64,000 nt of DNA from Candidatus Lindowbacteria bacterium RIFCSPLOWO2_12_FULL_62_27 (GTDB taxonomy: Bacteria > Lindowbacteria > 2-12-FULL-62-27), in NCBI GenBank assembly GCA_001784175.1, contig MFPR01000003.1:11836-75835 (forward strand), read 5' to 3'. Shown in pieces: positions 7,411-64,000 of the stretch. A program made the position numbers and the translations under genes. The notes beneath the pieces are model-generated. The model made no database searches. It saw only the letters and a program-made list of their open reading frames with translations, and was not told the origin of the DNA. Position 1 is the first letter of the stretch; every line of letters starts with the position of its first letter.

Positions 7411-7417
7411 GTGTCCG

Positions 7418-8059: not shown

Positions 8060-8997
8060 GAGCCGGCCGCCAGCGTCAGGATCACGCCGAATCCGGAAAG
8101 AACAAACGAGAGCGCCAGAAGCTGCGGGATGCGCGACAGGCGCAGCCGTGCCATCGTCGATTCTATGACGCCGACGAGAACCGACAGCGCCGCAAGGCCA
8201 ATCACCAGCGCGGCCCCGCCCTCCCAGAATCCCCCGCTGCGGATGGGACACACGATCCGGACGAGGAGTGCGCCGAGCGCAAAGAATTTGACGGCCGATC
8301 CGTATTCGATCAGCGCGAGGTCCGGCCCGCCGTGATCGAGGACCATGACTTCGTGGATCATCGTCAATTCCAGATGGGTGTTCGGATCATCCACCGGAAT
8401 CCGGGAATTCTCCGTCAGAAAGACGACGAGAAACGCCGCCGTGACCAGACAGAGCGCCGGCGCGTGAATCGACCAGATACGGATCAGCCCCACGCTCAGC
8501 ACATCGCTCATCGAAAAACTTCCCGCTTCGCGCGCCAGCGCCAGAAGACCCAATAGAAGCGCCGGTTCCGCCAGGCACGAGAACGCCGCCTCGCGGCTTG
8601 CGCCCATGCCCTCGAAGGCCGAGCCCGTGTCGAGCGCCGCCGTCATCGTGAAAAAGCGCGACAGGCCCCAGAGGTAGGCGAAGAGAATCAGGTCGCCCTG
8701 AAACGTCAGCGGCGATTCCATCCCGCCCAGCGGAATGATCAGCGTCGCCGCCAGGGCCGCTGAAAACGAAACCACGGGACCGGCCCGAAACAGCCACGTC
8801 GTCGTGCGGCTGTACACCGCGCCCTTGCGAAAGAGTTTGAAAATGTCCCGGTAGGGCTGCAGGAGCGGCGGGCCCCGCCGGCCCGCAAACCATGCCTTGG
8901 TTTTGGCGACGATCCCGGGCAGGATCGGCGAAACGGCGAGAACGAAGGCCCACTGCCGGACGATTTCCCGCGCGGTATCCATCAGATCGGTCATCAT
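8056..8997 (-). CDS. hyfC: Hydrogenase-4-like membrane subunit C (NuoH-like)
   Basis: A 313-residue NuoH/HycD-like protein that anchors the peripheral redox arm to the membrane arm. The family signature GRRGPPLLQPYRDIFKLF occurs near residue 40, and the acidic loop motif ENSRIPVDDPNTHLELTMIHE near residue 200 corresponds to the conserved loop that faces the quinone or active-site cavity in complex I. About eight membrane helices are visible. The start overlaps the hyfB stop (ATGA) and the stop overlaps the hyfE start (ATGA). Confidence 0.88.
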   Translation of the reverse strand: MMTDLMDTAREIVRQWAFVLAVSPILPGIVAKTKAWFAGRRGPPLLQPYRDIFKLFRKGAVYSRTTTWLFRAGPVVSFSAALAATLIIPLGGMESPLTFQGDLILFAYLWGLSRFFTMTAALDTGSAFEGMGASREAAFSCLAEPALLLGLLALAREAGSFSMSDVLSVGLIRIWSIHAPALCLVTAAFLVVFLTENSRIPVDDPNTHLELTMIHEVMVLDHGGPDLALIEYGSAVKFFALGALLVRIVCPIRSGGFWEGGAALVIGLAALSVLVGVIESTMARLRLSRIPQLLALSFVLSGFGVILTLAAGS

Positions 8998-14369: not shown

Positions 14370-17138
14370 ATGGCTGAATCAAAATTGTCAGGATCGGTCC
14401 TGCTGCCGAAAACGAGTTTCGCCATGCGGGGCCAACTGTCGAAACAGGAGCCGGCGCGGCTCAAGGCGTGGGTCGAGGGAAAATTGTACGAGGAGGCCCG
14501 GAAGGCGCGCCGGACTGCGCGCGCGTTTCATTTTCACGACGGGCCGCCGTACGCCAACGGCCATATCCACATGGGCACCGCGCTCAACAAAATCCTCAAG
14601 GACATCGTCGTCCGCTACAAGCTCCTGAGGGGGTTCGACGCGCCGTATGTCCACGGATGGGACTGCCACGGCCTGCCGATCGAACTCAAGGCGCTCGAAA
14701 ACGATCCGTCCATCGCCGCCGCGGCCCGGTCGGGCAACGATCCCGAGACGAAATTGCGCGTCCGTAAGGCGTGCCGGGCCTATGCGGAGAAATATCTTGA
14801 CGTGCAGCGCGGGGAATTTCGGAGGCTCGGGGTCCTCGGCGACCTCGACCGTCCCTACATCACCATGGATCCGGCCTATCAGGCCGACATTCTCGAGGGG
14901 CTGGCGCGGCTCGTGGAGGAGGGGTACGTGCGGCGCGCGGAGAAGCCGGTGTTGTGGTGCGCGAAGTGCCGGACGGCGCTGGCTGACGCGGAGGTCGAAT
15001 ACGAAGAGTCGACGTCGCCGGCCATCACGGTCAAGTTCCCGCTGGAATCGGATCCGAAGTCGTACCTGCTCATCTGGACCACCACGCCCTGGACGTTGCC
15101 GGCCAATCTCGCCGTCGCCGTCAAACCCGACGCGACGTATCTTCGGGCGAAGGTCGGCGAAGAAGTGTGGATTGCCGCCGAGACGCGGGCGGCGTCTTCG
15201 GGCGTTCCCGCCGGCGCGCCGGCCGAGCGCGTGCCCGGCAAGGACCTCGTGGGTCTCGTCTACCGCCATCCGTTCGCGGGCCGGACGGGCAAGGTCTATC
15301 CCGCCGGTTTTGTGACGATGGACACCGGAACCGGACTGGTGCACATCGCGCCGGGCCACGGCGAGGAGGACTTTCAGCTTGGGCAAAAATATCAGATCCC
15401 GACCTTGTCGCCGGTGGATGGCGCCGGCCGCTTCACGCGAGACGGCGGAGAATTTGCCGGCCAGTTTGTGTTTGACGCCAATCCGCATGTTGTCGACCGA
15501 CTCCGCTTGGCCGGCGCGCTCGTCAAGTCCGAGGAAATTCTGCACACGTATCCGCACTGCTGGCGCTGCAAGAAACCCGTGATTTTCCGCGCCACGCCCC
15601 AGTGGTTTGTCTCGGTCGACCACCAGGGGCTGCGGAAAAAAATGCTCGACGCGATCGGCCAGGTCCGGTGGGTTCCGGCCGTCGGTGAAAACCGGATTCG
15701 GGGGATGGTCGAATCCCGGCCGGACTGGTGCATTTCCCGGCAGAGGATTTGGGGCGTGCCGATCCCGGCGGTTCACTGCCGGTCGTGCGGCTGCGCGCAT
15801 CTGGACGCGTCGATTGTGCGGCGCGTTTCTCAGGCGGTGCGGGCGCGGTCCGCCGACGTGTGGTTTTCCGAACCTCCCGCGTCCTTTCTGCCGCCGGGCT
15901 GGTCGTGTCCCTCGTGCGGCTCGGCCGATTTCAAGCGCGAGGAGGACATCCTGGATGTCTGGTTCGATTCGGGCATGTCGCACATCGCGGCCTTTGAGCG
16001 GCGCCACGAAACCTGGCCCGCCGATCTCTATCTGGAAGGCTCCGACCAGCATCGCGGCTGGTTTCAGGTGTCTCTGCTTTTGGGCGTGGCCCTGAAGGGC
16101 CGGCCGCCGTTCAGGCAGGTGCTCACGCACGGATTCATCTGCGACGCCGGCGGCCGCAAGATGTCCAAATCGCTCGGCAACGCGGTGGCGCCGCAGGAAG
16201 TGGTGGACAAGCACGGCGCGGACGTCCTCCGGTTGTGGGTGGCCGGCAGCGACTACACGAGCGACATCCGGATCGGAGAAACCATTCTGTCCGAAACGGT
16301 GGACACGTACCGCCGGATCCGGAACACGATCCGCTTTCTTCTCGGCAACCTGCACGATTTCGATCCCGGCGCGGCCGTCGCGTTTGACGAGATGGACGCG
16401 CTCGACCGATTCATGCTCCAGCGCATGTCCAGGCTGGCCGCGGAGACGCTGGAGGCGTACGACGCGTACGATTTTTCGACCGTGGTCCGGCGCGTGCGGG
16501 ATTTCTGTTCGGAGGATCTGTCCGGATTCTATCTGGACGTTCTCAAGGACCGTCTCTATTGCGATGCGCGGGACGGCCGGTCCCGCCGGTCCGGCCAGAC
16601 CGTGCTCCATCATCTGGCGGAGCAGGTCCTGTTCCTGATTTCGCCCATCCTGCCCTTTACGGCGGACGAGGCGTGGGAGGCGATGCCGTACCGTCCAGGA
16701 AGCCGGGAAAGCCGACCGGCGATTCCCGAGTATCGGCCGCTGCATGTGCCTCTGGCCATGAGCGATTCGCCGGCGCAACAGGTATTCGAGCAGGTTCTCC
16801 GGCTCCGAAAAGAAGTCAACGGGACGATCGAAAAGGTCCGGCAGGCCGGGCAGATCGGAAGTTCCCTCGAAGCGCAGGTGTCGATCCGGGCCTCCGGCGC
16901 CGAATACGCGCAGCTTTCATCCGTCGCGGACCGGCTCGCCGAGTGGTTCATCGTGTCGGCGTGCAAGCTGGAGGAATCGCCGGCGGGCCCGCGGGAAATC
17001 CGCGTGGACCGCGCGGCCGGCGAGAAGTGCGACCGGTGCTGGAAATATGTTCCTGTCCGTCATCCGGTCGACCAGGGCGCGGTCTGCCCGCGATGCGCGG
17101 ACGTTCTTCGAGGTCTCGCCCTGAGTTCGCGTTCGTAG
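14370..17138 (+). CDS. ileS: Isoleucyl-tRNA synthetase
   Basis: A 922-residue class I synthetase that charges tRNA-Ile. The HIGH motif is GHIH at residues 64-67 (in PYANGHIHMGT) and the KMSKS motif is GRKMSKSLGN near residue 600. The editing domain lies between them, with the CP1-type TTTPWTLPANLA. A C-terminal zinc site (CDRCWKY...CPRCADVL) closes the protein, as in bacterial-type IleS. The length is typical. The start at 14370 (MAESKL) was preferred over an in-frame upstream codon at 14340. It heads an ileS-lspA-rluD run, a common bacterial neighbourhood. Confidence 0.96.
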   Translation: MAESKLSGSVLLPKTSFAMRGQLSKQEPARLKAWVEGKLYEEARKARRTARAFHFHDGPPYANGHIHMGTALNKILKDIVVRYKLLRGFDAPYVHGWDCHGLPIELKALENDPSIAAAARSGNDPETKLRVRKACRAYAEKYLDVQRGEFRRLGVLGDLDRPYITMDPAYQADILEGLARLVEEGYVRRAEKPVLWCAKCRTALADAEVEYEESTSPAITVKFPLESDPKSYLLIWTTTPWTLPANLAVAVKPDATYLRAKVGEEVWIAAETRAASSGVPAGAPAERVPGKDLVGLVYRHPFAGRTGKVYPAGFVTMDTGTGLVHIAPGHGEEDFQLGQKYQIPTLSPVDGAGRFTRDGGEFAGQFVFDANPHVVDRLRLAGALVKSEEILHTYPHCWRCKKPVIFRATPQWFVSVDHQGLRKKMLDAIGQVRWVPAVGENRIRGMVESRPDWCISRQRIWGVPIPAVHCRSCGCAHLDASIVRRVSQAVRARSADVWFSEPPASFLPPGWSCPSCGSADFKREEDILDVWFDSGMSHIAAFERRHETWPADLYLEGSDQHRGWFQVSLLLGVALKGRPPFRQVLTHGFICDAGGRKMSKSLGNAVAPQEVVDKHGADVLRLWVAGSDYTSDIRIGETILSETVDTYRRIRNTIRFLLGNLHDFDPGAAVAFDEMDALDRFMLQRMSRLAAETLEAYDAYDFSTVVRRVRDFCSEDLSGFYLDVLKDRLYCDARDGRSRRSGQTVLHHLAEQVLFLISPILPFTADEAWEAMPYRPGSRESRPAIPEYRPLHVPLAMSDSPAQQVFEQVLRLRKEVNGTIEKVRQAGQIGSSLEAQVSIRASGAEYAQLSSVADRLAEWFIVSACKLEESPAGPREIRVDRAAGEKCDRCWKYVPVRHPVDQGAVCPRCADVLRGLALSSRS

Positions 17139-23292: not shown

Positions 23293-23383
23293 TTTCGGGA
23301 CTAAACGCTATCGAGGCGGGCTACCCAAAGTTCCTCTTCAAATCCTATTGGACAAATAGTTACAAATTTGATACGGTTATGTC

Positions 23384-23575
23384 GTGGGCAAAATACGGAG
23401 AGGCAATTGCATCTTCGTGAGCTGGGTGGGAGATCACGGCCATCACGTTCACGTCTATCGGGATGGGAAACTCGTTTTGAAATGGGACTTGGATGAAAAC
23501 CGTGCGATCAAAGGCCGGATCACAGGTAAACTAAGAAAGCTGATCGACCAGCTTCGAAAGGAAGGACTCTTATGA
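23384..23575 (+). CDS. DUF4160-like small protein, module copy 1 (possible toxin)
   Basis: A 63-residue basic protein. The core (IFVSWVGDHGHHVHVYRDGKL) has the His-rich GDHGHHVHVY patch of DUF4160-like proteins, and the C-terminal half is a charged helix (KLRKLIDQLRKEGLL). DUF4160 proteins are commonly encoded next to DUF2442-type partners in toxin-antitoxin-like pairs, and that layout is seen here. GTG at 23384 is used because it gives the MGKIRRG start also found in copy 2. A 13-codon frame (ATG at 23379) overlaps the start. No direct evidence of toxicity. Confidence 0.6.
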   Translation: MGKIRRGNCIFVSWVGDHGHHVHVYRDGKLVLKWDLDENRAIKGRITGKLRKLIDQLRKEGLL

Positions 23576-24039
23576 AAATCAGAAAGGTTGAGGTGAATAA
23601 CCGCAAGAAATGTTTTGAACTCGTCACGTCGGATGGCCGCGTGCTGGAATATCCTTATTCCAGGCTTCGGATCAAGCCGTCGGCGAACGACAGAATCGCG
23701 GATGTTCGGGTGGACCCGGAAGTCGGCGGTGAGGGATTCACCTACGTCCTGGGATCTGGCAAGGAGGATACGATTGTCTTGGATCAGGTACTCGAATACA
23801 ACAAGGATACCGATTACCTGCGGGACATGCTCCTCTACAAACTTTCCCTGAAGGCCCAAAAATTGGTGCGTGAGCGTGGCGTCAGCAAACGCGAGATCGC
23901 CCGCCGGCTCCACACGTCACCCGTCCAGCTCTACCGCCTCCTGGATCAGACATTCGCGGGAAAGACCCTCGACCAGTTGGTGCGCCTGCTCGCCGCGCTG
24001 GATTGCCCGGTGGACGTGGTTTTCAAGAAGGCGGCCTGA
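23572..24039 (+). CDS. DUF2442/XRE-type fusion, module copy 1 (possible antitoxin)
   Basis: A 155-residue protein. The N-terminal half resembles DUF2442 (KCFELVTSDGRVLEYPYSRL), and the C-terminal half is a lambda-repressor-like helix-turn-helix (GVSKREIARRLHTSPVQLYRLLDQ) with the DQLVRLLAALDCPVDVVF tail usual in XRE antitoxins. The HTH would let it bind its own promoter. It overlaps the first gene by 4 bp (ATGA) and has AAGGAAGGA just upstream. Copy 2 differs by about ten residues, so the two are separate paralogues. Confidence 0.65.
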   Translation: MKIRKVEVNNRKKCFELVTSDGRVLEYPYSRLRIKPSANDRIADVRVDPEVGGEGFTYVLGSGKEDTIVLDQVLEYNKDTDYLRDMLLYKLSLKAQKLVRERGVSKREIARRLHTSPVQLYRLLDQTFAGKTLDQLVRLLAALDCPVDVVFKKAA

Positions 24040-24059
24040 TTTCAGCGATTCTCATCGCT

Positions 24060-30108: not shown

Positions 30109-30145
30109 ATTGGACAAATAGTTACAAATTTGATACGGTTATGTC

Positions 30146-30337
30146 GTGGGCAAGATACGGAGAGGCAATTACATCTTCGTGAGCTGGGTGGGAGATCACG
30201 GCCATCACGTTCACGTCTATCGGGATGGGAAACTCGTTTTGAAATGGGACTTGGATGAAAACCGTGCGATCAAAGGCCGGATCACAGGTAAACTAAGAAA
30301 GCTGATCAACCAGCTTCGAAAGGAAGGGCTGTTATGA
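30146..30337 (+). CDS. DUF4160-like small protein, module copy 2 (possible toxin)
   Basis: A 63-residue paralogue of the protein at 23384, differing at two positions (Cys9 to Tyr, and Asp to Asn in the C-terminal helix). The His-rich GDHGHHVHVY patch is unchanged. The GTG start and ATGA overlap with the next gene are preserved, so both copies look functional. As with copy 1, a toxin role is inferred only from gene pairing. Confidence 0.6.
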   Translation: MGKIRRGNYIFVSWVGDHGHHVHVYRDGKLVLKWDLDENRAIKGRITGKLRKLINQLRKEGLL

Positions 30338-30801
30338 AAATCAGAAAGATTGAGGCGAATAACCGCAAGAAATGTTTTGAACTCGTCGCGTCAGATGGCC
30401 GCGCGCTGGAATATCCTTATTCCAGGCTTCGGATCAGGCCGTCGGCAAACGACAGAATCACGGATGTTCGGGTGGATCCGGAAGTCGGCGGTGAGGGATT
30501 CACCTACGTCTTGGGATCCGGAAAAGAGGATACGATCGTCCTGGATCAGGTACTCGAATACAACAAAGATACCGATTACCTGCGGGACATGCTCCTCTAT
30601 AAACTGTCCCTGAAGGCCCAAAAATTGGTACAGGACCGCGGCGTCAGCAAACGCGAGATCGCCCGCCGTCTCCGCACCTCCCCCGTCCAGCTCTACCGAC
30701 TCCTGGATCAGACATTCGCGGGAAAGACCCTCGACCAGATGGTGCGCCTGCTCGCCGCGCTGGATTGCCCGGTGGACGTGGTTTTCAAGAAGGCGGCCTG
30801 A
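30334..30801 (+). CDS. DUF2442/XRE-type fusion, module copy 2 (possible antitoxin)
   Basis: A 155-residue paralogue of the protein at 23572. Changes cluster in the N-terminal DUF2442-like half and at the start of the helix-turn-helix (VRERG to VQDRG, Leu-His to Leu-Arg), the part that could alter DNA or partner recognition; the recognition helix itself (SPVQLYRLLDQ) is kept. It ends 14 bp from the converging AAA ATPase gene. Confidence 0.65.
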   Translation: MKIRKIEANNRKKCFELVASDGRALEYPYSRLRIRPSANDRITDVRVDPEVGGEGFTYVLGSGKEDTIVLDQVLEYNKDTDYLRDMLLYKLSLKAQKLVQDRGVSKREIARRLRTSPVQLYRLLDQTFAGKTLDQMVRLLAALDCPVDVVFKKAA

Positions 30802-30814
30802 TTTCTTGGGCCGT

Positions 30815-40054: not shown

Positions 40055-43000
40055 ATGCTGAACGCCATCGTCCAAAAAGTCCTGAAGCGGCCGTATACGA
40101 CCATTCTATTTTTCGTGGCCTTCGCCGCCGCCAGTGTCTTTCTCATTCCGCTCATTCCCATTGACGCCACGCCCGACATTACGAACGTCCAGGTCCTCGT
40201 CAATACGCTTACCGGCGGCCTCGACCCGGAACAGATCGAAAAAAGCGTCACCACGCCCATCGAGTCTGAAATGGGCGGCATCGCCGGCGTGAAGGAAGTC
40301 CGGTCGCTCTCCAAAAACGGCCTCTCGCAAGTGGTGGTCGTCTTCGAGGACGGAGCCGACATCTACTGGGCGCGCCAGCAGGTTTCCGAACGGCTCCAGG
40401 CCATCCGCGAAAATCTGCCGGACGGCCTTTCACCGGAACTTGCGCCCATCTCGACGGGCTTGGGCGAAGTGCTCATGTACGTCGTCCTGGCCAAACCTGA
40501 AACGCCGCTCGCGCAAAAAAACGAGATCGACCGGCTTCTCTATCTTCGCACGATTCAGGATTTCGTCATCCGCCGCTACATCAAGGCGAACTGCGCCGAT
40601 ATCGCCGAGGTGGACGCCACCGGCGGATTCAAAAAAGAAATTCACGTCAACGTCGATCCGGCCCGGCTCGAGGATCAAGGGCTTGGGATCGAAGACATCG
40701 TCCGGAAACTGGAGACGGTGGGCGAAAGTTTCGGCGGCGGATACATTCAGCATGAGGGGAGGCAGGTCATCGTCCGCACCGCGGGATCCCCCAATCTGGA
40801 CCGGATTCGCCGGATCGCCGTCAAGCTCGATGTGCGCGGCCGCCCGGTTTTTTTGAGCGAGGTCGCCGACGTGTGGGAAGGATTCGTTCAGCGCCAGGGC
40901 GCGGCGACGTACGCCGGCGAGGAAACGGTGCTGGGCATCGTTCTCATGCGAAGCGGCGCCAATTCCCGAAGGGTTTCAATCGACGCCGAACGGGCGCTGG
41001 CGGAAATTCCCCTGCCCGGCGATGTCGAAGTCAAGATCCTCTATTCGAGGCGGTATCTGGTGGACGCGACCATCCACACCGTCGCCAAGAATCTGGCCGA
41101 GGGCGCGGTTCTGGTCGTCCTCGTGCTCCTCCTCATCCTCGGCAATTTCCGGGCCGCCCTGATCGTGTCCCTGGCGATTCCGCTCTCGATGCTCTTCGCC
41201 GCCGCGGGCATGAAATATTTCGGGATTTCGGCCAACCTCATGAGTCTCGGCGCCATCGATTTCGGGCTCCTCGTGGACGCGTCGGTCGTCCTCATCGAAA
41301 ACATTTTAAGGCGCATGTCCCAAAAATCCGGCGACCGCCTGAATCTCGTTCTCGATTCGGTGAAAGAGGTGTTGTTGCCTGTGACGATCGGACTTCTTCT
41401 CATCATGGCCGTCTACGTCCCGATTTTGGCGCTGGAGGGCATCGAGGGGAAACTTTTCAAGCCGATGGCGCTGACGGTGCTCATGGCGCTGGCGTCGTCC
41501 TTGGCCGTCGCGGTCGCGCTCATGCCGGTTTTGGCGTATCTGGTGTTGCGACCGCCGGCGCGCGAACATAAGGAAACGGCGTTGTTCAACCTTGCGCAAA
41601 AAATGTACCGGCCCCTCCTCAATTTTGCGTTGAACCACCGGGCGGTTCTGTTCATCGGCGTTGCGATTCTCGCCGGAGCGTCCCTTTTTGTCTTCAGCCG
41701 AATGGGCGCCGACTTTATGCCGCCGCTTGACGAAGGCGATCTGGTCGTGAATCTGACGCGGGACAGCGGCATCGCGCTCGACGAATCGGTGAGGATCCAG
41801 AAAATGTCGGATCGCATCATCGCCGGGTTCCCCGAGGTCGAACACGTCTTTTCCCGCACCGGAACTCCGGAGTCGGCCACCGACCCCATGGGCGTGCATT
41901 TGTCCGACGTGTTCGTCATTCTGAATAAGACAGGCAAGGGGCGAACAAAGGAGGAACTGTTCGAAGCAATCCGAGAGGCGATCGAGCGGGAGGCGCCCGG
42001 GCAGGAGGTGATGGCGAATCAGCCCATCGAGATGCGTTTTTCCGAAATCCTCGAAGGCACCCGCGCCGACGTGTCGCTTCGCATCTACGGGCCTGAACTC
42101 GAAACGCTCATGGAGCTCCTGGAAACGTCCAAGGCAACCCTCGAAACGATCCGGGGCGCGTCGGAAGTGGAACTCGACGGCCTCACGGCGCTTCGAAAAA
42201 GTTCCGTCTTGAGCGTCCGGCCCGACGACGAAAAATTGGCGCGTTACGGCGTCGATCTTGGCCGGGTCAACTGGCTTCTCGAAACCGCCATGGCCGGCCG
42301 CCCGGTCGGCAGTTACTACGAAAACCAGTGGCGGTTTCCGATCGTCGTCCGGCTGGATGACCGCTATCGTAAAAACCCGGGTGAAATCGCGCGCCTGCCC
42401 GTGGGTCTGCCCGATGGCGGCTCCGTGCCTCTCTCGGCGCTGGCCGATATTGACCGGCAAGATCACGTGACGACCATCGCGCACGATCAAGGCGAGCGAT
42501 ACGCCGCCGTCGCCATCAATCTATCGACCGACCGCGACATCCAGAGTTTTGTGGCCGATGCGAAAGAGACCCTGGCGTCGAATCTCGCCCTGCCGGCGGG
42601 CTACCGGCTGTCGTGGGGCGGACAGTTCAAAAATCTGGAGCGGGCGTCGGCGCGTCTCCGGGTGATTGTCCCGCTGATATTGCTGGTGATTTTTCTCGCG
42701 CTCGTCAGCCAGTTCGGCCGCGTCCGTCAGGCGCTGATCGTCTATTTGAGCATCCCGTTCGCGATGACGGGCGGCGTGTTCTCTCTATATTTAAGAGACA
42801 TCCCCTTCAGCATCTCGGCCGCCGTCGGATTCATCGCCCTCACCGGCATCGCGATTCTGAACGCGATGGTCCTCGTCACGTTTTTCAATCAGCTCCGACA
42901 ATCCGGCATGCCTCTGGATCAAGCGGTAACCGAAGGCGCCGAAACGCGCCTGCGCCCCGTGCTGATGACCGCGCTGGTCGCCAGCCTGGGGTTTCTCCCG

Positions 43001-43174
43001 ATGGCCCTCAACACCGGCATCGGCGCCGAAGTTCAGCGGCCGCTCGCGACGGTCGTCATCGGCGGCATCCTCTCTTCGACCCTTCTTACCCTCCTGGTTG
43101 TTCCGATGCTCTACGCCTGGATCGAGCCGATGAGGTTGCCGTCGATTTCGGGGAGGTTGAAACGAGCGGGGTGA
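40055..43174 (+). CDS. czcA: Heavy-metal RND efflux permease (CzcA/CusA family)
   Basis: A 1039-residue inner-membrane pump. The transmembrane-4 motif DFGLLVDASVVLIENILRR, with one Asp and one Glu, marks heavy-metal (HME) RND proteins, and LIPLIPIDATPDITNVQV at the N-terminus is typical of CzcA. The metal (Zn/Co/Cd or Cu/Ag) cannot be told from the sequence. The channel gene is upstream, but there is no adaptor (CzcB). Parts of its 3' half are copied at 45280-45499. Confidence 0.92.
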   Translation: MLNAIVQKVLKRPYTTILFFVAFAAASVFLIPLIPIDATPDITNVQVLVNTLTGGLDPEQIEKSVTTPIESEMGGIAGVKEVRSLSKNGLSQVVVVFEDGADIYWARQQVSERLQAIRENLPDGLSPELAPISTGLGEVLMYVVLAKPETPLAQKNEIDRLLYLRTIQDFVIRRYIKANCADIAEVDATGGFKKEIHVNVDPARLEDQGLGIEDIVRKLETVGESFGGGYIQHEGRQVIVRTAGSPNLDRIRRIAVKLDVRGRPVFLSEVADVWEGFVQRQGAATYAGEETVLGIVLMRSGANSRRVSIDAERALAEIPLPGDVEVKILYSRRYLVDATIHTVAKNLAEGAVLVVLVLLLILGNFRAALIVSLAIPLSMLFAAAGMKYFGISANLMSLGAIDFGLLVDASVVLIENILRRMSQKSGDRLNLVLDSVKEVLLPVTIGLLLIMAVYVPILALEGIEGKLFKPMALTVLMALASSLAVAVALMPVLAYLVLRPPAREHKETALFNLAQKMYRPLLNFALNHRAVLFIGVAILAGASLFVFSRMGADFMPPLDEGDLVVNLTRDSGIALDESVRIQKMSDRIIAGFPEVEHVFSRTGTPESATDPMGVHLSDVFVILNKTGKGRTKEELFEAIREAIEREAPGQEVMANQPIEMRFSEILEGTRADVSLRIYGPELETLMELLETSKATLETIRGASEVELDGLTALRKSSVLSVRPDDEKLARYGVDLGRVNWLLETAMAGRPVGSYYENQWRFPIVVRLDDRYRKNPGEIARLPVGLPDGGSVPLSALADIDRQDHVTTIAHDQGERYAAVAINLSTDRDIQSFVADAKETLASNLALPAGYRLSWGGQFKNLERASARLRVIVPLILLVIFLALVSQFGRVRQALIVYLSIPFAMTGGVFSLYLRDIPFSISAAVGFIALTGIAILNAMVLVTFFNQLRQSGMPLDQAVTEGAETRLRPVLMTALVASLGFLPMALNTGIGAEVQRPLATVVIGGILSSTLLTLLVVPMLYAWIEPMRLPSISGRLKRAG

Positions 43175-43442: not shown

Positions 43443-44318
43443 CTATGGAAGTAAAGACCGGGCGAGGGGTTTGAGTTGGTGTCTCCTGGCGTCGGCAATC
43501 AGACGCCTCTCGCCGTCGGAGAGATCGAGAAGGAATCGATACCGGTTCTCGCAAACGGAGATCAGTTTCTCCGGGCTTATTTTTTCGCTTCTGCGGACAA
43601 GTTGCCGGAGATCGTCCCAATCGTATTTTGCCGAACGCAGGCGCTTGATAAAACGACCGGAGTCGAATGGATCCCTGACGTTCCAGCATTTGACCACCGT
43701 AAGCGCCCTGATGAGCGACGCCTTGAGAGGTTTCTCGGCCGCTTTGGCCAGGTCGTAGAGATCCCGGGAGCGGACCCGTTGTGAGGAGGCGCGAATCTTC
43801 TCGGCCAACAGTTCCTCGAACCGGAGTGCCGGAACGGAGAATGGCTTGAATTCGAGATGCTTGAAATAGGATTGAGGTTTCAGAGGCATTTCCACCGGCG
43901 CGAGAGAGGGTGATTCCCGGAGACTGACCTCCAGTTTGAATTTGCCCGAGTTCCAATCGTGCCCGTACTGGATGTTCGCCCCGCACGACTTCTTATCGTC
44001 CGTCACATAGAAATCCTTGGAGTCCACATCAAAGGAGATGCCGCAGGCCGGTTTCCCCAAAGTCCCAAGCATCGCAATGATGACATCATCCGCCTTCTGA
44101 CTGCTGGTGTTGGTAAAGTCCAAGTCGATGGAAAAGCGGGTCTCTTTGCCATAGACGCATTTGCGGAGGCACGTACCGCCCTTGAAGGCCAACGTGTCGA
44201 GGATTCCCGCATCGTGGAATATCTTGAGGACATAGGTCAGGACGATCTCACGCTCGGCCACCTCTATCCCAACGTGTGCGCCCTGGGCGAAGAGGTCGGC
44301 GTATCGTTGTTCAATCAT
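43443..44318 (-). CDS. abiEii: AbiEii-type nucleotidyltransferase toxin
   Basis: A 291-residue protein of the AbiEii/DUF1814 nucleotidyltransferase family, toxins of type IV abortive-infection systems. The active-site pattern LAFKGGTCLRK followed by RFSIDLDFT (Gly-Gly and Asp-x-Asp) is intact near residues 44 and 60, and the C-terminal helical region with ELLAEKIRASSQRVRSRDLYDLAK is conserved. The ATG overlaps the antitoxin stop by 4 bp. Confidence 0.88.
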   Translation of the reverse strand: MIEQRYADLFAQGAHVGIEVAEREIVLTYVLKIFHDAGILDTLAFKGGTCLRKCVYGKETRFSIDLDFTNTSSQKADDVIIAMLGTLGKPACGISFDVDSKDFYVTDDKKSCGANIQYGHDWNSGKFKLEVSLRESPSLAPVEMPLKPQSYFKHLEFKPFSVPALRFEELLAEKIRASSQRVRSRDLYDLAKAAEKPLKASLIRALTVVKCWNVRDPFDSGRFIKRLRSAKYDWDDLRQLVRRSEKISPEKLISVCENRYRFLLDLSDGERRLIADARRHQLKPLARSLLP

Positions 44319-45136
44319 CCGATTCGCACCTCACCCAGTAGATCCTCCTTCGGCACATTTAGAATGAGGTTCCACCGCGCATCCAGTTTCCCCTTCGTAC
44401 CCCATCTTCGAGGAGACCCAAGCAGCGCCGGATTTTTTTTCACCTGGCCGGCGAGATAGGATTTCAGTCTGGCTGGCAGAGCAATACGCAACAGTTCGCA
44501 CAGGTAAGCGAAACGACGGGCCAGAGCGCTGTCATCGAATCGTTGAAGATAGTCCAGTACCTTGGTCACGTCCATCTTCCGACCCGCATGGAATAACGCC
44601 TGCGCTCCGGCCTCAATGCCTCCGACAAGATCGGGACGGTCGAGTGCGTCCAAGATCGACCGTTCCACGTCCGATACGTTGATCTTCTCACCCATGATCA
44701 TGGCTTCCTTGTAGCCGAAGAATCGTTTGGCCGACAGCTCGACAAACTGGAATCGGACATTCTTGAGATCCATCGGCCGCTTGGGACGCCGCACCGCGAT
44801 ATGAATGACGCGTGGAATTTGCGTCAACAACCCATGATGGGCGCACGCGAACCGGTAGGCAAAGAAGTGGGATTTTGGGAGCAGGCGCGCCATCAAGTAG
44901 GGATTCATTTCCGGCACACCCTTCGGTCCCCTTGCGACCCCCACCAGGAGATAGTGGCCTTTTGTCAGCATTTCCAACCAGCCCTTTTTTCTGAGAACGT
45001 GCGCCATTTTGCGGGCATAGCCATTGGAGCAGCGCATGCGTTTCATAATATCGCCGATTGAGATCAGGCGCTGCTTTTCCCATTCCCATGCCAAGACAAT
45101 ATCGGCTTCCCGTTTGGAGAGGCTTCTTTGAGTCAT
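44315..45136 (-). CDS. abiEi: AbiEi-type antitoxin
   Basis: A 273-residue protein with an N-terminal winged helix-turn-helix (ISIGDIMKRMRCSNGYARKMAHVLRKKGWLE) and an AbiEi-type C-terminal part. Known AbiEi proteins repress their own promoter by binding inverted repeats, and an inverted repeat at 45155-45173 sits just upstream. The start at 45136 (MTQRSLSK) is used because AAAGGACAG lies just before it and promoter and operator are directly upstream; the longer frame to 45217 would include them. Confidence 0.85.
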   Translation of the reverse strand: MTQRSLSKREADIVLAWEWEKQRLISIGDIMKRMRCSNGYARKMAHVLRKKGWLEMLTKGHYLLVGVARGPKGVPEMNPYLMARLLPKSHFFAYRFACAHHGLLTQIPRVIHIAVRRPKRPMDLKNVRFQFVELSAKRFFGYKEAMIMGEKINVSDVERSILDALDRPDLVGGIEAGAQALFHAGRKMDVTKVLDYLQRFDDSALARRFAYLCELLRIALPARLKSYLAGQVKKNPALLGSPRRWGTKGKLDARWNLILNVPKEDLLGEVRIG

Positions 45137-45154
45137 ATTATCTGTCCTTTTGAA

Positions 45155-45173
45155 TGTTACTGAATTTGTAACA
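45155..45173 (-). promoter_or_regulatory. Inverted-repeat operator of the abiE genes
   Basis: TGTTAC (45155-45160) and GTAACA (45168-45173) are perfect 6-bp arms with a 7-bp spacer, next to the -10 element and 18 bp before the antitoxin ATG. This matches the expected position of a self-repression site for the antitoxin. Confidence 0.6.
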
Positions 45174-45201
45174 TTGTCGTGTATAAATATCGTCATGTCA
45201 A
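45173..45201 (-). promoter_or_regulatory. Promoter of the abiE operon
   Basis: On the minus strand TTGACA (45196-45201), exactly 17 bp, and GACAAT (45173-45178). The -10 touches the inverted repeat. The ATG of the divergent mosaic gene (45195) lies inside the -35 region. Confidence 0.6.
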
Positions 45202-46529
45202 GTTCGAAAGCACCCAAAAAAGGGAAAAGGGGTCATTTTTCCTTATTCCTTTTTCTCCTTTTCTTCTTTCTTCTCAACGCGATTCGGGGCGCGTCGGAAG
45301 TGGAACTCGACGGCCTCACGGCGCTTCGAAAGAGTTCCGTCTTGAGCGTCCGGCTGGATGACCGCTATCGTAAAAACCCGGCTGAAATCGCGCGCCTGCC
45401 GGTGGGTCTGCCCGATGGCGGCTCCGTGCCTCTCTCGGCACTGGCCGATATTGAGCATCCCGTTCGCAATGACGGGCGGCGTGTTCTCTCTATATTTAAC
45501 TTTGTGCTACCTATCGCCGCCCCAGCGGGAACTTATCGAATCAGAGTCGCTCTTCGTAGCCCTTTTTCCAAAAAACCGTTCTATAGACACAAGAATGGTG
45601 AGCCGATGGACATCTTCAAGGTGTCCGGTCGGAAGTTCGAGCCGGTTATTGTGGACGCGGGGACGATGAAGATGACGGGTCGGAGGTTCGAGCCGGTTAT
45701 TGTGGACGCGGGGACGATAAAAATGACGGGGCAGGCAGGATTCGAGCCCATAACCGTGCGGACAGATGAGATCAAGGTGACCGGGGTGAAGTTCGACCCA
45801 GTCACCGTCCGTACGGATGAGTTGAGCATGACCGGTCGTAGATTCGATCCTGTAACGCTCCGTACGGACGAGCTGACCATGACAGGCCGGCGCTTCGATC
45901 CCGTGAGTTTCCGTGCGTCCGAGGAAATGACGATGACAGGCCGGCGCTTCGATCCCATGAGTTTCCGTGCGTCCGAGGAAATGATGATGACCGGGCAGAG
46001 GACCGACCAGACAACGCCAGCAGCGTCAAAAACGGGCAATACGGATTTTTCGAAATCGACCGTGGAGAAAGAGAAATCGGTTCCCGAATTCAAACGCCCA
46101 TCGGGTCTTCCGGCAAAAACAGGACTGGACCCGGCGGAGTTTTCCTTTAGAACCAGTGGGAATGTCAAAGCATCATTCAACGGCCAGACTCTCCACGTTC
46201 ATGCTCCCGGTCTCGACGCGGGATGGAAGCTCAATTTTAATTTACCGCCCGAAGAGAAGGCGGCCTTTACGGTCAGCGTCGGGCAACCCTTCAAATTCAA
46301 ATTGAATCTCGCGGAATCCCCGCTAAATATCGTAGCATCCGGATCGGTGATGCTTGTGGCCCCGGGCACGGCGAAGGTGGAGTTCTCTTCCCTGATGGTG
46401 GCGTTCGATGGAGAGGAGAGTATGGATGTGGTGGAGCTTCCGGTGGCGGTCACGGCCGTCGGATCTGCGCAGGTGCCAGTGGGGACGTTGAAGATTTCTG
46501 TGTCGCCGGGTGAGGAGGTCGAGGAGTGA
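45195..46529 (+). CDS. Mosaic gene: czcA-derived patch joined to a tandem-repeat protein
   Basis: An open frame of 444 codons assembled from unrelated parts. Residues 1-28 have a basic start and a Phe/Leu-rich segment. Codons for 45280-45499 come from three pieces of czcA (see repeat entry), the third read in another frame. Next, APAGTYRIRVALRSPF and KPFYRHKNGEPMDIF closely match the neighbouring secreted protein (47331 onward). Then come seven 17-18-residue repeats ending in MTG, and a beta-rich C-terminal domain (GNVKASFNGQTLHVHAPG to the end). The start is uncertain. It may be a decayed gene whose 5' end was replaced, or a living chimera; the repeat and C-terminal parts show no internal stops. 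Confidence 0.55.
   Translation: MSSSKAPKKGKRGHFSLFLFLLFFFLLNAIRGASEVELDGLTALRKSSVLSVRLDDRYRKNPAEIARLPVGLPDGGSVPLSALADIEHPVRNDGRRVLSIFNFVLPIAAPAGTYRIRVALRSPFSKKPFYRHKNGEPMDIFKVSGRKFEPVIVDAGTMKMTGRRFEPVIVDAGTIKMTGQAGFEPITVRTDEIKVTGVKFDPVTVRTDELSMTGRRFDPVTLRTDELTMTGRRFDPVSFRASEEMTMTGRRFDPMSFRASEEMMMTGQRTDQTTPAASKTGNTDFSKSTVEKEKSVPEFKRPSGLPAKTGLDPAEFSFRTSGNVKASFNGQTLHVHAPGLDAGWKLNFNLPPEEKAAFTVSVGQPFKFKLNLAESPLNIVASGSVMLVAPGTAKVEFSSLMVAFDGEESMDVVELPVAVTAVGSAQVPVGTLKISVSPGEEVEE
45280..45499 (+). repeat. Composite copy of three czcA segments
   Basis: 45280-45353 matches 42147-42220 (72 of 74 bases). 45354-45454 matches 42353-42453 with about 3 mismatches. 45455-45499 matches 42750-42792 with a 2-bp CT insertion. 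The two deletions remove 132 and 296 bp and fall at short shared sequences (CGTCCGG and TTGA). Confidence 0.92.
45630..45995 (+). repeat. Seven tandem 51-54-bp repeats encoding RRFDPVTxRTDELTMTG-like units
   Basis: Units start at 45630, 45681, 45732, 45786, 45837, 45888 and 45942; five are 51 bp and two to three are 54 bp through one extra codon. The first two are almost identical in DNA; later ones diverge. The constant parts are Arg-Phe-Asp/Glu-Pro at the front and Met-Thr-Gly at the end. Confidence 0.9.
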
Positions 46530-46561: not shown

Positions 46562-46756
46562 TTACGCCTTCCAAGGATGAGGAATCCCAAGGTCTCTGCA
46601 GATTTTCTGGACCATTCGATTGGACAATTCCCGGTGTCGGGGAATGCTCGAGGTTCTAAGTGTTTGCGGATGGTAATAAATCGTGTGGCGGGTACCTTCC
46701 CGGAAGAGGCGGCACCCGCGAGTTTCCAGATGCCGGATCGCCTCGCCTCTTTTCAT
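46562..46756 (-). CDS. hicA: HicA-family mRNA interferase toxin (locus 2)
   Basis: A 64-residue HicA protein: the catalytic His is in EGTRHTIYYHP near residue 23, then SIPRHRELSNRMVQKICRDLGIP. It follows hicB with a 4-bp overlap, the reverse of the order at 24.4 kb, and shares little sequence with that copy, so the two loci were acquired separately. Confidence 0.82.
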   Translation of the reverse strand: MKRGEAIRHLETRGCRLFREGTRHTIYYHPQTLRTSSIPRHRELSNRMVQKICRDLGIPHPWKA

Positions 46757-46977
46757 GCCGCGCGAATTTCGAGGGCTTCCCGGATCACCTCTCTATCTCG
46801 GACGAAGCGCCGGGCCAGTTCACGGTTGGCCTCCATGACCAACTTGACGGCTTCTTTCAAATTCCGCCGGGCTTCTGGAAGCGTCCGGCCCTGGGTGTTG
46901 GCGCCCGGCAGTTCCTCGACAAATCCGATCCACCATTTACCGTCTTTTTCAAAAACCGCAGTGAATTTACGTTTCAT
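46753..46977 (-). CDS. hicB: HicB-family antitoxin (locus 2)
   Basis: A 74-residue HicB antitoxin: KFTAVFEKDGKWWIGFVEELPGANTQGRTLPEARRNLKEAVKL shows the family's W-hGFhEELPG core. A C-terminal basic stretch follows, but no clear DNA-binding domain. It is first in its operon, divergent from the secreted protein gene 25 bp away. Confidence 0.82.
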   Translation of the reverse strand: MKRKFTAVFEKDGKWWIGFVEELPGANTQGRTLPEARRNLKEAVKLVMEANRELARRFVRDREVIREALEIRAA

Positions 46978-47002: not shown

Positions 47003-49581
47003 ATGAAGTCAACTCGAATCGTTGGGCTGCTCGTTGGGCTGCTGTCGGCGTGTCTGGCCGGATTTCTATTGGCATGGGCTAGCCCCGCAAACGCCGTTCA
47101 GGTGGACGGTCCTGTGGCCGCCAGGGAAACTTACAGCCCGGGCGACGCAGTCGAAGTTTCGATCAAGGTCGTCAACGACGGCGCCAAAAAATAATATTTA
47201 TCCCGCTTCTGGACATCGACGGGCCGAATGGCGAGCCGGTTTACCGCGGTGCGCAGGACCGGCTCATGAGAAAGAAAAAGGTCCGGCTTGTGGCGGGGAA
47301 ATCCGAGACGGTCAGGTTCAGATTTGACCTCTCTCGCGATGCCCCGCAAGGGACCTACCGCGCCCGCGCGGCGCTTCGAAGTCCCTTCTCATCAAAACCT
47401 TTTTACCGTCATCGTAACGGGGAACTGATGGACGTGTTCATGGTTGCCGGGGGCGCCTCGGCTCCGGAAACCACGCCTATTTCGGCCGTCCCCGCGGTCC
47501 CTGAAATCCCGCCATTGCCCGCGCCCGAATTGGCCGGACCGCCGGATGAGCAGGCCAAAAATATTCTCCGGCTCATCCAGGACGCTTATGCGCGCAAGGA
47601 CCTCGACGGTATCGTGCAGTATCTTTCTCCGACCGCGGTCATCGCCCTCCCCTCCGGCCGGCAGGATGTTTCTACCTATCGGCGGACACTTGGATCGCTG
47701 TTCATGGCGCTGGACAATCCGCGGTGGGAATATGAAATCGTCTCCGTCAGCCCGGACCCCAAGAGCGGCGCGATCCGCGTCAGGGTTCAATCCACCTATT
47801 CCGCAAATCTGATTGAGTTGATCGGCGTCAATCCCGCGGCGCTGGAACGGGCCGGTGAGCCGCCGGCCCTGCAGTCGCGGGTTCTCGAATCGTTTAAGGC
47901 CTCTGCGGGGGAAATATTCGAATTCCGGCCGGATGTCTCCGGGCAGATGCGGATCGTCGAACTGGCATCGGTCCTGCGGCTCGATCCAACGATTGCAGAC
48001 CAGATCGCGGAGCTGACGGCCACGTGGGAGTCCAAGGTCGCCATTGTTTCACTTTTTTTCTATCTTGAGGAGAAAGAGGTGGACAAGTTCGCCTCCCTCA
48101 TCCACGAGAAATTCATCAACAATGACGACAACTCCTTCAACCACGGCAGGACCGAATTCCTTGAATCGGTCCGCGCCGACCTCGATCATCTCTCCAATTT
48201 CGACCACGGCGTCCGGGTGGAGTCGATCCTGTTCAACAGCGACCGTTCGGAGGCGCGCGTGCCGGTCACGTGGGACCGCCGCGCGCGTATCGGCAACACC
48301 AAGTCGGAGTGGACGGTCAAGGACAGAAAAACCGTTTTCACCTTGAAGCGCGGGTCCGGATTCAAACTCGCTCAAATCGAGGGCAGTCCCTTGTTCGGCA
48401 ATTCGAGTTTTCTCACACGCAAGACGCTGATCAACGCGGGCGAGGTCGACGCTGCGAAAGTGACGAAGGCGATCGTGGTGGACGACAAACGTGAGACAGC
48501 CGCCGCATCGAGCGCGGATGTGCCTGAACTTCCCGCGGAACAGCTTTCCAGCCTCAGCGTGAGTTCGGAAGTGACAGGCAGTATTTCGTCCAGCCCGACA
48601 ACGGATCAGACATGGACAGGCAATGTCGCCTTGATGACCAGCATGACCATCCCGGCCAGCGTCACGATTACCATCAAGGCGGCAACCGTGACAGTGGCGA
48701 ATAACGTAGCGATCACAGTGGAAGGCACGGTTGACGCCACCTCGGCGTCAACTACATTCAGCATGGGTACGGGTTCCAGTATCACAATTAATGGGATATT
48801 TAATGCAACCTCCGCGACGTTCAAGAAATCATCCGGGGCTGATACATGGAGTGGGATAACGACAGGATCGGCCGCCACTGTCACCCTTTCTTCCTGCACA
48901 CTCCAGGATGCGGACACGTTGGTTACCGTCAACGGCGGGTCACCCACATTTCAGAACGGGACGGTCAAACCCGGGTTTTGCGCTTTCTATATAAAGGGCG
49001 GGTCTCCGAGCATCTCGAATATTACATTTACGTCGAATACAGGGGCCGCCGCCACCGCATATGCGATGATTATCAGCGCGGGTACAACCATCACATTCAG
49101 TGATAATACAATCTCTAACCTGACCGGCCCTGTTATCAACGGATTCAGAAGAGCTGTTCAGATCAACAGCACTTTTTCGGGTACATATAATTCCTCTAGA
49201 AACGTCTTCGATGGTAATGCCCACTACGCCAACACCCCAGTGGGTGTCATGGCAAGCACCAGCAATGCAACATTAAATTTTACTAATGATGTTTACAAAA
49301 ACTGGTCGAATGGAATTCGAAGTGCGGGAGCCAACGAAGTCGATGAAGATGACGATGGCTCCCGGATGACCGTCACCAACTGCGATTTTTCTCGCGGCCC
49401 TCTTGTCGGCGGAAACGGCACTGGAGACGGGACGCCCAGCAACGTCTTAAACGGCTGTTATTTCGATAATTCCGGCAACGGAACCAGCGTAGATACGGGA
49501 ACAACTGTGCCGGATTCTGCCTCTTTTTCCTATGAAGATGTGTCGAGTGTCAGCAATCCACGCTCGACGAAAAACAACTGA
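47003..49581 (+). pseudogene. Secreted Ig-like/NTF2-like/beta-helix protein, broken by a one-base frameshift
   Basis: Starts MKSTRIVGLLVGLLSACLAG with a signal peptide ending at SPANA, then an Ig-like domain. The frame stops at 47192-47194 directly after a run of six A (GCC AAA AAA TAA). One more A, or a -1 slip, continues smoothly into IFIPLLDIDGPNGEP and on to 49581. Downstream parts are the rest of the Ig-like domain, a Pro/Ala linker, two NTF2-like domains (near 47560-47820 and 48030-48400), and a right-handed beta-helix (48600-49500) rich in Thr, Ser, Asn and Val. It is about 860 residues if joined. The lesion could be a sequencing error, a mutation, or slippage used on purpose; the sequence cannot decide. 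Confidence 0.7.
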
Positions 49582-61402: not shown

Positions 61403-64000
61403 ATGAAGTATATGCGGAAAGTACCAACACTGTTTGTATATATAGCCTTGCTGGCCGCCAATCCGCTTTTGGACAAGGCCTTCGCTTCCAACGCACCGCC
61501 CCAGCCCGGGGAAACGCAGTGGGTGCCTCTGCACACTTCCAGGTGGGATCCCTATGCGGACACGGTATACAACGACGGCACCTCCAGCTACACCGAGATC
61601 GTCGACGACAAAGACTCGTTCTCCGGGTACATGTACTATGACCGAAGCTACCGGGGCGGGTGGCTTTATATCCGCATGGCGCTTGATTCGCCGGACACCG
61701 CCAGCTGGCAGCAGGGGTCGAACAACATCCGGAATTTCGGATGGATGCTTTTTTTCGATGCGGACGGCGATCTCGACATGGACTGGGGCGTGCAGGTCCT
61801 CGGCGGCAATCCGGAGGGCGTGCAGGTCCTGTATGACGTCGACGGCGACAACAACCTGACAAACGGGACGGTCACCTGGTCCGATGTCTCGGGCGCGGCT
61901 TACACAACGAGCGCCGTTTCCTGCACGGTGTGCGTGACGACGATTCCCCGGTCCAGCACGAACGGCGATTCGGATGTCTGGATGATGTGGTCGGCGCCAT
62001 TGAGCGCGTTTCAAAACGCGGGCGCGCTCGCATCGATCTACGAGACGACGCCGATGCGCGTGGCGTTCGGGACGGGGGCGTCTGCGCAGAGTTTGGGCCG
62101 CGACATATCCGGCGGCGGGACGCCCGCGGGCGCGTTTACGGCGTCGCAGATCGTGACGGCGAGCATGTTTGCGAGCGGCGGATCGTCCAGCCCGGGCGGG
62201 GCGCTCTATGACGACAAGGATACCAGCCCGACTTCCATCGCGGGGACTTGGAAACAAAAAAATACGATCACCATCACCGGCAATGGCTGGCCGACCAACC
62301 GGGACACGCTCGCCATGCGCCTGGTCTACGACTCGCGGGATACCACGCAGTACTCATACCAGGCCGACAGCGTCTCGTTCGCCAAGGACAGCGGGACGTT
62401 CAGCAAGATCAACCTGTGGACGACCACCGTCAATGACACGCCGGGCGTGTACGGGATATACGTCCAGCATCCGATCACGCCGGCCAAGGGCTGGTATTTT
62501 TATGACTCCTTTGTCCTCGACACGACGGCGGTCTACAACACGGCGTCGATCGGGACATTTCCGGTCAGCATCATCGCGAAGGATTCGATCTACCCGCAGA
62601 TCGAGGACCAGGACGGGAACACGGACAGCGCGGTCACCGAAACGGTTGCGGTGACGTTCACCAATCAGACCACGGGCGAGACTGAAACGCTGACGCTGTA
62701 CGAGTCCACGGCGGCCAGCCCGATTTTCAAAAACACGGCGATGGCGACGAGCACCGGCGCGTCGGATTCCTTGAGCGCGTCCGGCAAGCTGTACGTCAAA
62801 CCGGGCGACACGCTCACCGTCCAGTACGTCGACCCGGACCAGTCGAGCGACAGCGTGACATCCGCGGGCATCGCCGTGATCGCGGACACGGCCTACTCGA
62901 CGATGACGATCTCCACGACGCTGTTTTTGAGCGATTCGATCGCGCCGGTCGTCACCGACAGCGACCAGAACGCGAACGGGTCTGCGACGGAGACAGTGAC
63001 GGTGACGGTGACGAATCAGACGACGGGCGAGACGGAGACGCTCTACGTCACGGAGACGGGAAACAATACCGGCATCTTCGACATCGCCAGCCTCTTGACA
63101 AGTACAAGTTCGGGCGACTCGGCAAGTGGCACGGGAAAATTATACGTTCGAGCGGCAGATACGCTGACGGTGAAATACACCGATCCGACGGACGCCAGAG
63201 ACAGCGTGACGTCGGGGACGATCACGATGATTCCGGACACGGCGACGAGCTACGGCACGTCGCCGTTGACGGTGTCGACGTCGGATTCGATCGCGCCGGT
63301 GGTGTCGGATTCGGATCAGAACCTGAACGGGGATGCGGTGGAGACGGTGACGGTGACGATCACGAACGGCATGACGGGGGAGACGGAGGTCGTGACGCTG
63401 ACGGAGACGGGGAAGAACACGGGGGTGTTCGACATCGGCGGACTCGCGCTATCGATTCTGCCGGGCGATTCGGCGAGCGTCAGCGGCAAGCTGTACGTGA
63501 AGCCTGGGGACACGGTGACGGCGAAATACACGGACCCGACGGATGGACGGGACTCGTTCACGACGCCGTCGATCGGCGTCGTGCCGGATACATCCAACAG
63601 CTACGGCACGGCGCCGGTGTCGGTGTCGACGGCGGATTCGATTGCGCCGGTGGTGTCGGATTCGGATCAGAACCTGAACGGGGATGCGGTGGAGACGATC
63701 ACTGTCACGATCACCAACGGCGTGACGGGGGAGACGGAGACGCTGATGCTGACGGAGACGGGGAAGAATACGGGCGTGTTCGACATTGCGGGACTCACGC
63801 TGTCGATTCTGCCGGGCGATTCGACGAGTGTCAGCGGCAAGCTGTACGTGAAGCCGGGGGACACGGTGACGATCAAATACACGGACCCAACGGACGGTAC
63901 GGACAGCGTGACGTCGTCGACGATCACGATGATTCCGGACACGGCGACGAGCTACGGCACGTCGCCGTTGACGGTGTCGACGTCGGACTCGATCGCGCCG
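61403..64000 (+). CDS. Large secreted repeat protein, 3' end beyond window
   Basis: At least 866 residues, open to the window edge. A signal peptide (VPTLFVYIALLAANPLLDKAFA) is followed by a unique N-terminal region to about residue 393 with WDPYADTVYNDG and an acidic FFDADGDLDMDWGVQ stretch that may bind Ca. From 62582 there are five 117-residue repeats (the fifth cut by the edge), each beginning DSIAPVV and rich in Thr, Asp, Gly and Ser, typical of extended Ig-like adhesin stalks. The start at 61403 has GGAAGGA about 10 bp upstream. The C-terminal anchor is not visible. Confidence 0.8.
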   Translation, partial: MKYMRKVPTLFVYIALLAANPLLDKAFASNAPPQPGETQWVPLHTSRWDPYADTVYNDGTSSYTEIVDDKDSFSGYMYYDRSYRGGWLYIRMALDSPDTASWQQGSNNIRNFGWMLFFDADGDLDMDWGVQVLGGNPEGVQVLYDVDGDNNLTNGTVTWSDVSGAAYTTSAVSCTVCVTTIPRSSTNGDSDVWMMWSAPLSAFQNAGALASIYETTPMRVAFGTGASAQSLGRDISGGGTPAGAFTASQIVTASMFASGGSSSPGGALYDDKDTSPTSIAGTWKQKNTITITGNGWPTNRDTLAMRLVYDSRDTTQYSYQADSVSFAKDSGTFSKINLWTTTVNDTPGVYGIYVQHPITPAKGWYFYDSFVLDTTAVYNTASIGTFPVSIIAKDSIYPQIEDQDGNTDSAVTETVAVTFTNQTTGETETLTLYESTAASPIFKNTAMATSTGASDSLSASGKLYVKPGDTLTVQYVDPDQSSDSVTSAGIAVIADTAYSTMTISTTLFLSDSIAPVVTDSDQNANGSATETVTVTVTNQTTGETETLYVTETGNNTGIFDIASLLTSTSSGDSASGTGKLYVRAADTLTVKYTDPTDARDSVTSGTITMIPDTATSYGTSPLTVSTSDSIAPVVSDSDQNLNGDAVETVTVTITNGMTGETEVVTLTETGKNTGVFDIGGLALSILPGDSASVSGKLYVKPGDTVTAKYTDPTDGRDSFTTPSIGVVPDTSNSYGTAPVSVSTADSIAPVVSDSDQNLNGDAVETITVTITNGVTGETETLMLTETGKNTGVFDIAGLTLSILPGDSTSVSGKLYVKPGDTVTIKYTDPTDGTDSVTSSTITMIPDTATSYGTSPLTVSTSDSIAP
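62582..64000 (+). repeat. Exact 351-bp tandem repeats in the surface-protein gene
   Basis: Units begin at 62582, 62933, 63284, 63635 and 63986 (last one partial), each exactly 351 bp. Units 3 and 4 are highly similar in DNA (for example GACTCG/GATTCG starts followed by near-identical sequence), whereas unit 1 has diverged, which fits recent expansion at the 3' side. Confidence 0.95.

Follow-up and report, generated by a model that had tools for sequence, protein, structure and literature searches.

The question raised by this locus is how three fragments of a transporter gene came to lie, in their original order, at the head of an open frame that otherwise belongs to a different gene. Within the window (the whole 64,000-nucleotide stretch of DNA analysed here), the donor is a czcA-type RND transporter gene at 40055-43174 (Pfam ACR_tran, 861.7 bits) which has an ortholog in the related genome G002. 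A preliminary description of this DNA had reported a patchwork of czcA at 45280-45499, and both BLASTN and base-by-base comparison bear this out: positions 45281-45499 consist of three czcA pieces in donor order and on the donor strand, 97-98% identical to their source. Piece 1 (45281-45354) corresponds to donor 42148-42221 with 2 mismatches in 74 positions and has 8 bp in common with piece 2 (45347-45454), which in turn corresponds to donor 42346-42453 with 3 mismatches in 108. Piece 3 (45451-45499), shifted in frame, corresponds to donor 42746-42794 with 1 mismatch in 49. The donor gene and all of these pieces, copy and source alike, are on the plus strand. Altogether, the copy amounts to 219 bp drawn from a donor stretch of ~647-648 bp. 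The losses relative to the donor are 132 bp and 296 bp, as originally reported, the first keeping the reading frame and the second shifting the third piece out of it.

Microhomology is present at both joins, as had been claimed, although the lengths given for it have to be revised: the first repeat is 8 bp rather than 7 bp, and the second is 4 bp or possibly 7 bp. At the first join the final 8 bases of the donor of piece 1, CGTCCGGC (from 42214), are seen again as a direct repeat at 42346. At the second, the donor of piece 2 ends in TTGA and the donor of piece 3 begins with TTGAGCA, giving a 4-bp repeat in present-day donor czcA. The G002 gene has TTGAGCA at the end of piece 2 as well, reading GATATTGAGCA, which is identical to the copy there. 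If this G002 state is ancestral, the repeat may have been the 7-bp TTGAGCA when the deletion happened, a length that is unproven because piece 3 also provides GAGCA. The ~648-bp donor stretch contains five direct-repeat pairs of 8 bp and 16 of 7 bp, and for a random blunt join within it the probability of homology is 0.001 at 7 bp or longer and 0.00024 at 8 bp or longer. A hairpin-aided deletion was considered and not adopted, although the 132-bp segment can be folded with its ends close together. The pieces, the joins and the repeats together support the original proposal that a duplicated czcA fragment shrank by deletions at short direct repeats.

The source and age of the copy can be judged against a family comparison of three genomes, in which G001 and G002 are the relatives. 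A whole-genome search found no other close source of the copy, the next best match being a czcA paralogue on contig C9 at ~77-79%. The G002 ortholog has 88-89% DNA identity to the donor (88.4% over 1115 bp) and allows most of the six differences between copy and donor to be polarised: at two the copy agrees with G002, so it is the donor that has changed, three are private to the copy, and one is of ambiguous polarity. Because it carries both private states and states shared with G002, the copy is real diverged sequence and not misassembled donor reads. It therefore split from the donor after the divergence of G002 and has evolved separately since, with only three to four changes on its own branch.

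The gap between the donor and the copy is filled by an AbiEi/AbiEii operon that is absent from the preliminary description. The gene for AbiEii, the nucleotidyltransferase toxin of this type IV toxin-antitoxin (TA) system, lies at 43443-44318 on the minus strand (Pfam AbiEii, 94.8 bits against a cut-off of 22.5; PADLOC, 231.7). It is overlapped by 4 bp by the gene for the antitoxin and regulator AbiEi (44315-45136, minus strand), which reads leftward from an ATG at 45136 and scores 190 bits with PADLOC AbiEi, its Pfam AbiEi_1 match being below threshold (20.0 against 22.2). The likeness to AbiE systems thus lies in the overlap of the two genes and in their strong PADLOC matches; nothing unusual was found in this putative TA module itself. 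An inverted repeat read from the sequence upstream of abiEi (TGTTAC-N7-GTAACA, 45155-45173) is a candidate operator. A block of 1757 bp (43450-45206) is common to this module and an AbiE module of G001 (contig C223), with 81% identity, no gaps and a sharp end at 45206, and we treat it as delimiting the mobile module. On the right, 74 bp separate it from the czcA copy. The two AbiE genes lie exactly between donor and copy. The genomic context of the G001 module differs from that in the window, and so the module is mobile at the scale of the family.

Neither the listing of open frames nor Pfam revealed a transposase or insertion sequence between 43175 and 45280, a stretch that holds just the AbiE genes and one short REP-like motif, AAAAGGGGTCATTTTTCC (45225-45242, plus strand). 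This motif is repeated in all three family genomes (5, 6 and 9 copies, against 0, 1 and 1 for a reversed control), and in at least three cases it adjoins genes for Y1 (REP-type) transposases. The involvement of a REP/Y1 transposase at the present locus was considered and set aside as a lead, since the motif lies 40 bp to the left of the copy but has no transposase nearby. Retrocopying by a reverse transcriptase was likewise rejected; reverse transcriptase genes occur in the genome, none of them tied to this locus.

To the right, the copy is part of a chimeric open frame on the plus strand which runs uninterrupted across the joins from an ATG at 45195, or an in-frame TTG at 45150, to 46529 (459 codons). 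Its putative product comprises a hydrophobic head, ~73 czcA-derived residues, a truncated domain, repeats and a C-terminal domain. The head, encoded upstream of the copy, is basic and then hydrophobic and could be signal-peptide-like; the DNA encoding it comes in part from the end of the AbiE block (to 45206) and in part from the motif repeated across the family. No Shine-Dalgarno-like sequence was seen upstream of the ATG at 45195, and a protein search of the genome contigs returned no relatives of the chimera. Beyond the copy the frame reads FNFVLPIAAPAGTYRIRVALRSPFSKKPFYRHKNGEPMDIFKVSG, and 53 residues align with the next gene (47003-49581) at 60% amino acid identity. Alignment with paralogues identifies the first ~45 residues of this part (45500-45640, plus strand) as the end of an N-terminal domain that is found whole, behind a signal peptide, in the next gene, in a gene on contig C41 (a 605-aa frame) and at G002:C129. 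The recipient lacks the front of this domain and is therefore a truncated older gene. The chimera is thus a truncation and fusion of a pre-existing secreted-protein gene.

It had been proposed that the czcA fragment became the N-terminal part of a new open frame, possibly a gene born from fragments. The fragment does indeed lie in the 5' part of a long open frame; the birth of a new gene does not follow, given that everything after 45500 belongs to an older gene and that 10 of 81 frame combinations would run through the joins without a stop. With that many combinations remaining open, the lack of interruption is a weak sign that the frame is used. The arrangement resembles the chimeric or de novo birth of genes by rearrangement in joining parts of an unrelated gene to an older one, but loss of the start of that older gene describes it equally well. 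The chimeric frame and its paralogous neighbor are separated by a further TA module at 46562-46977 on the minus strand, which consists of a gene for the toxin HicA (Pfam, 41.8 bits) and one resembling HicB (UPF0150 match below threshold). In the neighbor itself (47003-47265), the signal peptide and the start of the domain are out of frame with the rest by one base in an A6 run near 47185, either a real frameshift or an assembly error.

Our preferred explanation, to which we give a probability of about 0.55, is that AbiE, on inserting downstream of czcA, produced a long target duplication, and that the patchwork is what erosion has left of its right-hand copy. The starting arrangement would have been czcA followed by the secreted-protein gene. 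Insertion of AbiE would have converted this to czcA, AbiE, a second copy of the czcA 3' region and then the secreted-protein gene. The redundant copy would then have lost 132 bp between the 8-bp direct repeats and 296 bp between the repeats of 4-7 bp, in both cases by replication slippage or annealing. A third deletion would have removed the end of the copy together with the start of the secreted-protein gene, its signal peptide and most of its N-terminal domain, joining the remainders into an open frame. The pieces, their joins, the intervening operon and the truncation relative to paralogues are observed directly; from them we infer that insertion of AbiE made the duplication, in what sequence the events took place, and that there was a third deletion.

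Direct host repeats of at least ~100 bp on both sides of an addiction or defence module are found in the window. A far copy ending where the near copy meets the module is found at another locus (on contig C1) and approximately at two more (on C11 and at G001:C325), but not here: in the window the last copied base corresponds to 42794, which is 649 bp away from AbiE (the shared block starts at 43450), and because the copy thus lacks the diagnostic AbiE boundary, a terminal deletion must be assumed. The preliminary description had looked to relatives for a check, and G002 does help in polarising the copy-donor differences. It offers no clean empty site, and none was found in the relatives: czcA of G002 has neither AbiE nor the copy beside it, but the gene that follows is a different one.

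At these three other loci the layout of gene, TA module and far-side copy of the 3' region of the gene recurs, and the copies stop at the point where gene and module meet or no more than ~80 bp from it. This is the geometry predicted by insertion with a long target duplication. At C1 a sigma-54 regulator gene (6510-8234) is followed by genes for a ParS antitoxin and a RES toxin (8291-9235) and then by a copy at 9325-9530, in which 9325-9352 derive from 7518-7545 and the remainder, 9353-9530, from 8112-8289, the intervening 566 bp being absent. Copying extends as far as 8289 and the match to a ParS-RES relative at G001:C76 begins at 8291, which by this comparison puts the meeting point of module and target exactly where the copy stops. 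No TA module follows the ortholog of the regulator at G001:C200. At C11 the 3' end of lnt (minus strand) is followed by a CopG/BrnT-like pair, a DUF4258/MqsA-like pair and then pieces of lnt, 15934-15854 corresponding to lnt 17498-17418 and 15746-15726 to lnt 17418-17398. The lnt copy ends at the homologue of 17398 and the antitoxin frame at 17393, the boundary here being approximate. At G001:C325 the last 261-264 bp of a gene (8647-8910) are repeated at 4859-5119, with DUF4160-DUF2442, AbiEi-AbiEii and DUF5615 genes between the two copies; the copy terminates at the stop codon of the gene, again an approximate boundary.

Further repeats whose origin is less clear surround TA genes on contig C7 and in islands on C4 and C11. 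The C4 island (G000:C4:221231-231411) is a 10-kb region in which small TA genes (PIN, HicB-like, DUF433/DUF5615-like and DUF2442-like, all but PIN read by eye) lie among many direct repeats of 40-230 bp without attC motifs. An origin of the C4 and C11 islands from integron cassettes was rejected, their repeats lacking GTTRRRY/RYYYAAC pairs. One repeat family on C11 is a near-perfect hairpin element. At 14979-15041 and 15966-16028 of locus L087, a near-perfect hairpin element (~-42 kcal/mol) lies between TA modules, and it also occurs elsewhere in the genome. On the small contig C7 (G000:C7, locus L084), short copies of pieces of a tail-like gene (1749-1785, 6479-6521, 7423-7459 and 7831-7873) are scattered around a DUF4160-DUF2442 pair. 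At G000:C6, 46-bp direct repeats that resemble a tRNA 3' end (63838-63883 and 64624-64669) enclose a PIN gene and one small gene, and no tRNA was detected at these repeats by ARAGORN. The window also contains a 697-bp block in two copies of 95% identity (23347-24043 and 30109-30805), each with a gene for a 155-aa helix-turn-helix protein.

The main competitor to the insertion of AbiE is an ordinary local duplication of czcA, unconnected with AbiE and later shrunk by the same deletions, the position of AbiE being coincidental or acquired afterwards. We regard this as unlikely, if by no means negligible. In 1.67 Mb of the genome, short local duplicates are common (108 direct pairs, 7 inverted), and many enclose no TA module. 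Many of these TA-free pairs, however, are repeats internal to proteins, intergenic repeat elements or CRISPR repeats, whereas gene-derived duplicates outside proteins often enclose TA modules and recur around them with a matching boundary. Direct repeats (at least 46 bits, within 4 kb on both sides) flank 11 of 35 AbiEii and PIN loci but only 27 of 291 randomly chosen genes with 80-400 codons (P = 7e-4, Fisher's test), a figure that mixes discovery and test loci, the 35 including those that prompted the idea. Among the 22 loci fetched afterwards the count is 5, which is not significant alone, and two of these five resemble intergenic repeat elements. The remaining 24 of the 35 loci have no flanking repeat, and the TA-rich region C4:216-231k and the C11 island account for at least 9 of the 27 control matches. 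The association between TA genes and direct repeats is suggestive and not settled.

Still less probable, in our estimation, is a single repair event of the MMBIR kind, in which a polymerase, switching templates at microhomologies, would have filled a break in the secreted-protein gene with three short stretches of czcA. Such templated insertions are assembled from short segments of a template close by, kept in order and linked by microhomology, and the single strand, forward order and microhomology at both internal joins seen here are of this kind; the 5' end of the recipient would also have been replaced in one step. A forward-only order is, however, equally expected from deletions within one copy, and the mechanism is unnecessary if the pieces are the remnants of a single duplicate. 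It requires no AbiE and so leaves the recurrent association with TA modules unexplained, and the internal join of the C1 copy has little or no microhomology. An assembly artefact or strain mixture is very improbable. The assembly comprises 44 contigs and is apparently metagenomic, and the record of its nearest relative is a groundwater MAG, but the six copy-donor differences (three of them private to the copy and two ancestral) speak against a chimera, as do the position of the joins at real short repeats and the preservation of the open frame.

Reading the patchwork as the insertion scar of a TA module is, we suggest, more useful than reading it as a newly born gene, and it has a precedent. 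Passages of PMC3031569 and PMC3874152, citing Nobusato 2000 and Furuta 2010, describe restriction-modification genes as inserting with long, variable target duplications of the order of 100 bp. In the cases as described there, the likeness lies in an addiction or defence module with no transposase of its own, flanked by direct host copies of ~100 bp or more. The differences are that the module is AbiE here, and ParS-RES or CopG/BrnT-like pairs elsewhere, and that the second copy has been broken into pieces and fused to a neighboring gene. More tentatively, and with greater doubt than attaches to the window itself, several kinds of TA module (AbiE, ParS-RES and CopG/BrnT-like) may in this lineage target the 3' regions of host genes, duplicating ~100-770 bp as they insert and requiring no transposase of their own; the redundant copies would then decay and occasionally fuse to genes downstream, which would give new open frames. 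To our knowledge, how small TA modules without transposases enter chromosomes is poorly known. If the layout is general, the scars would date and orient such insertions, the insertion mode of restriction-modification genes would extend to toxin-antitoxin modules, and the chimera would illustrate one way in which TA insertions damage or remodel the adjoining gene.
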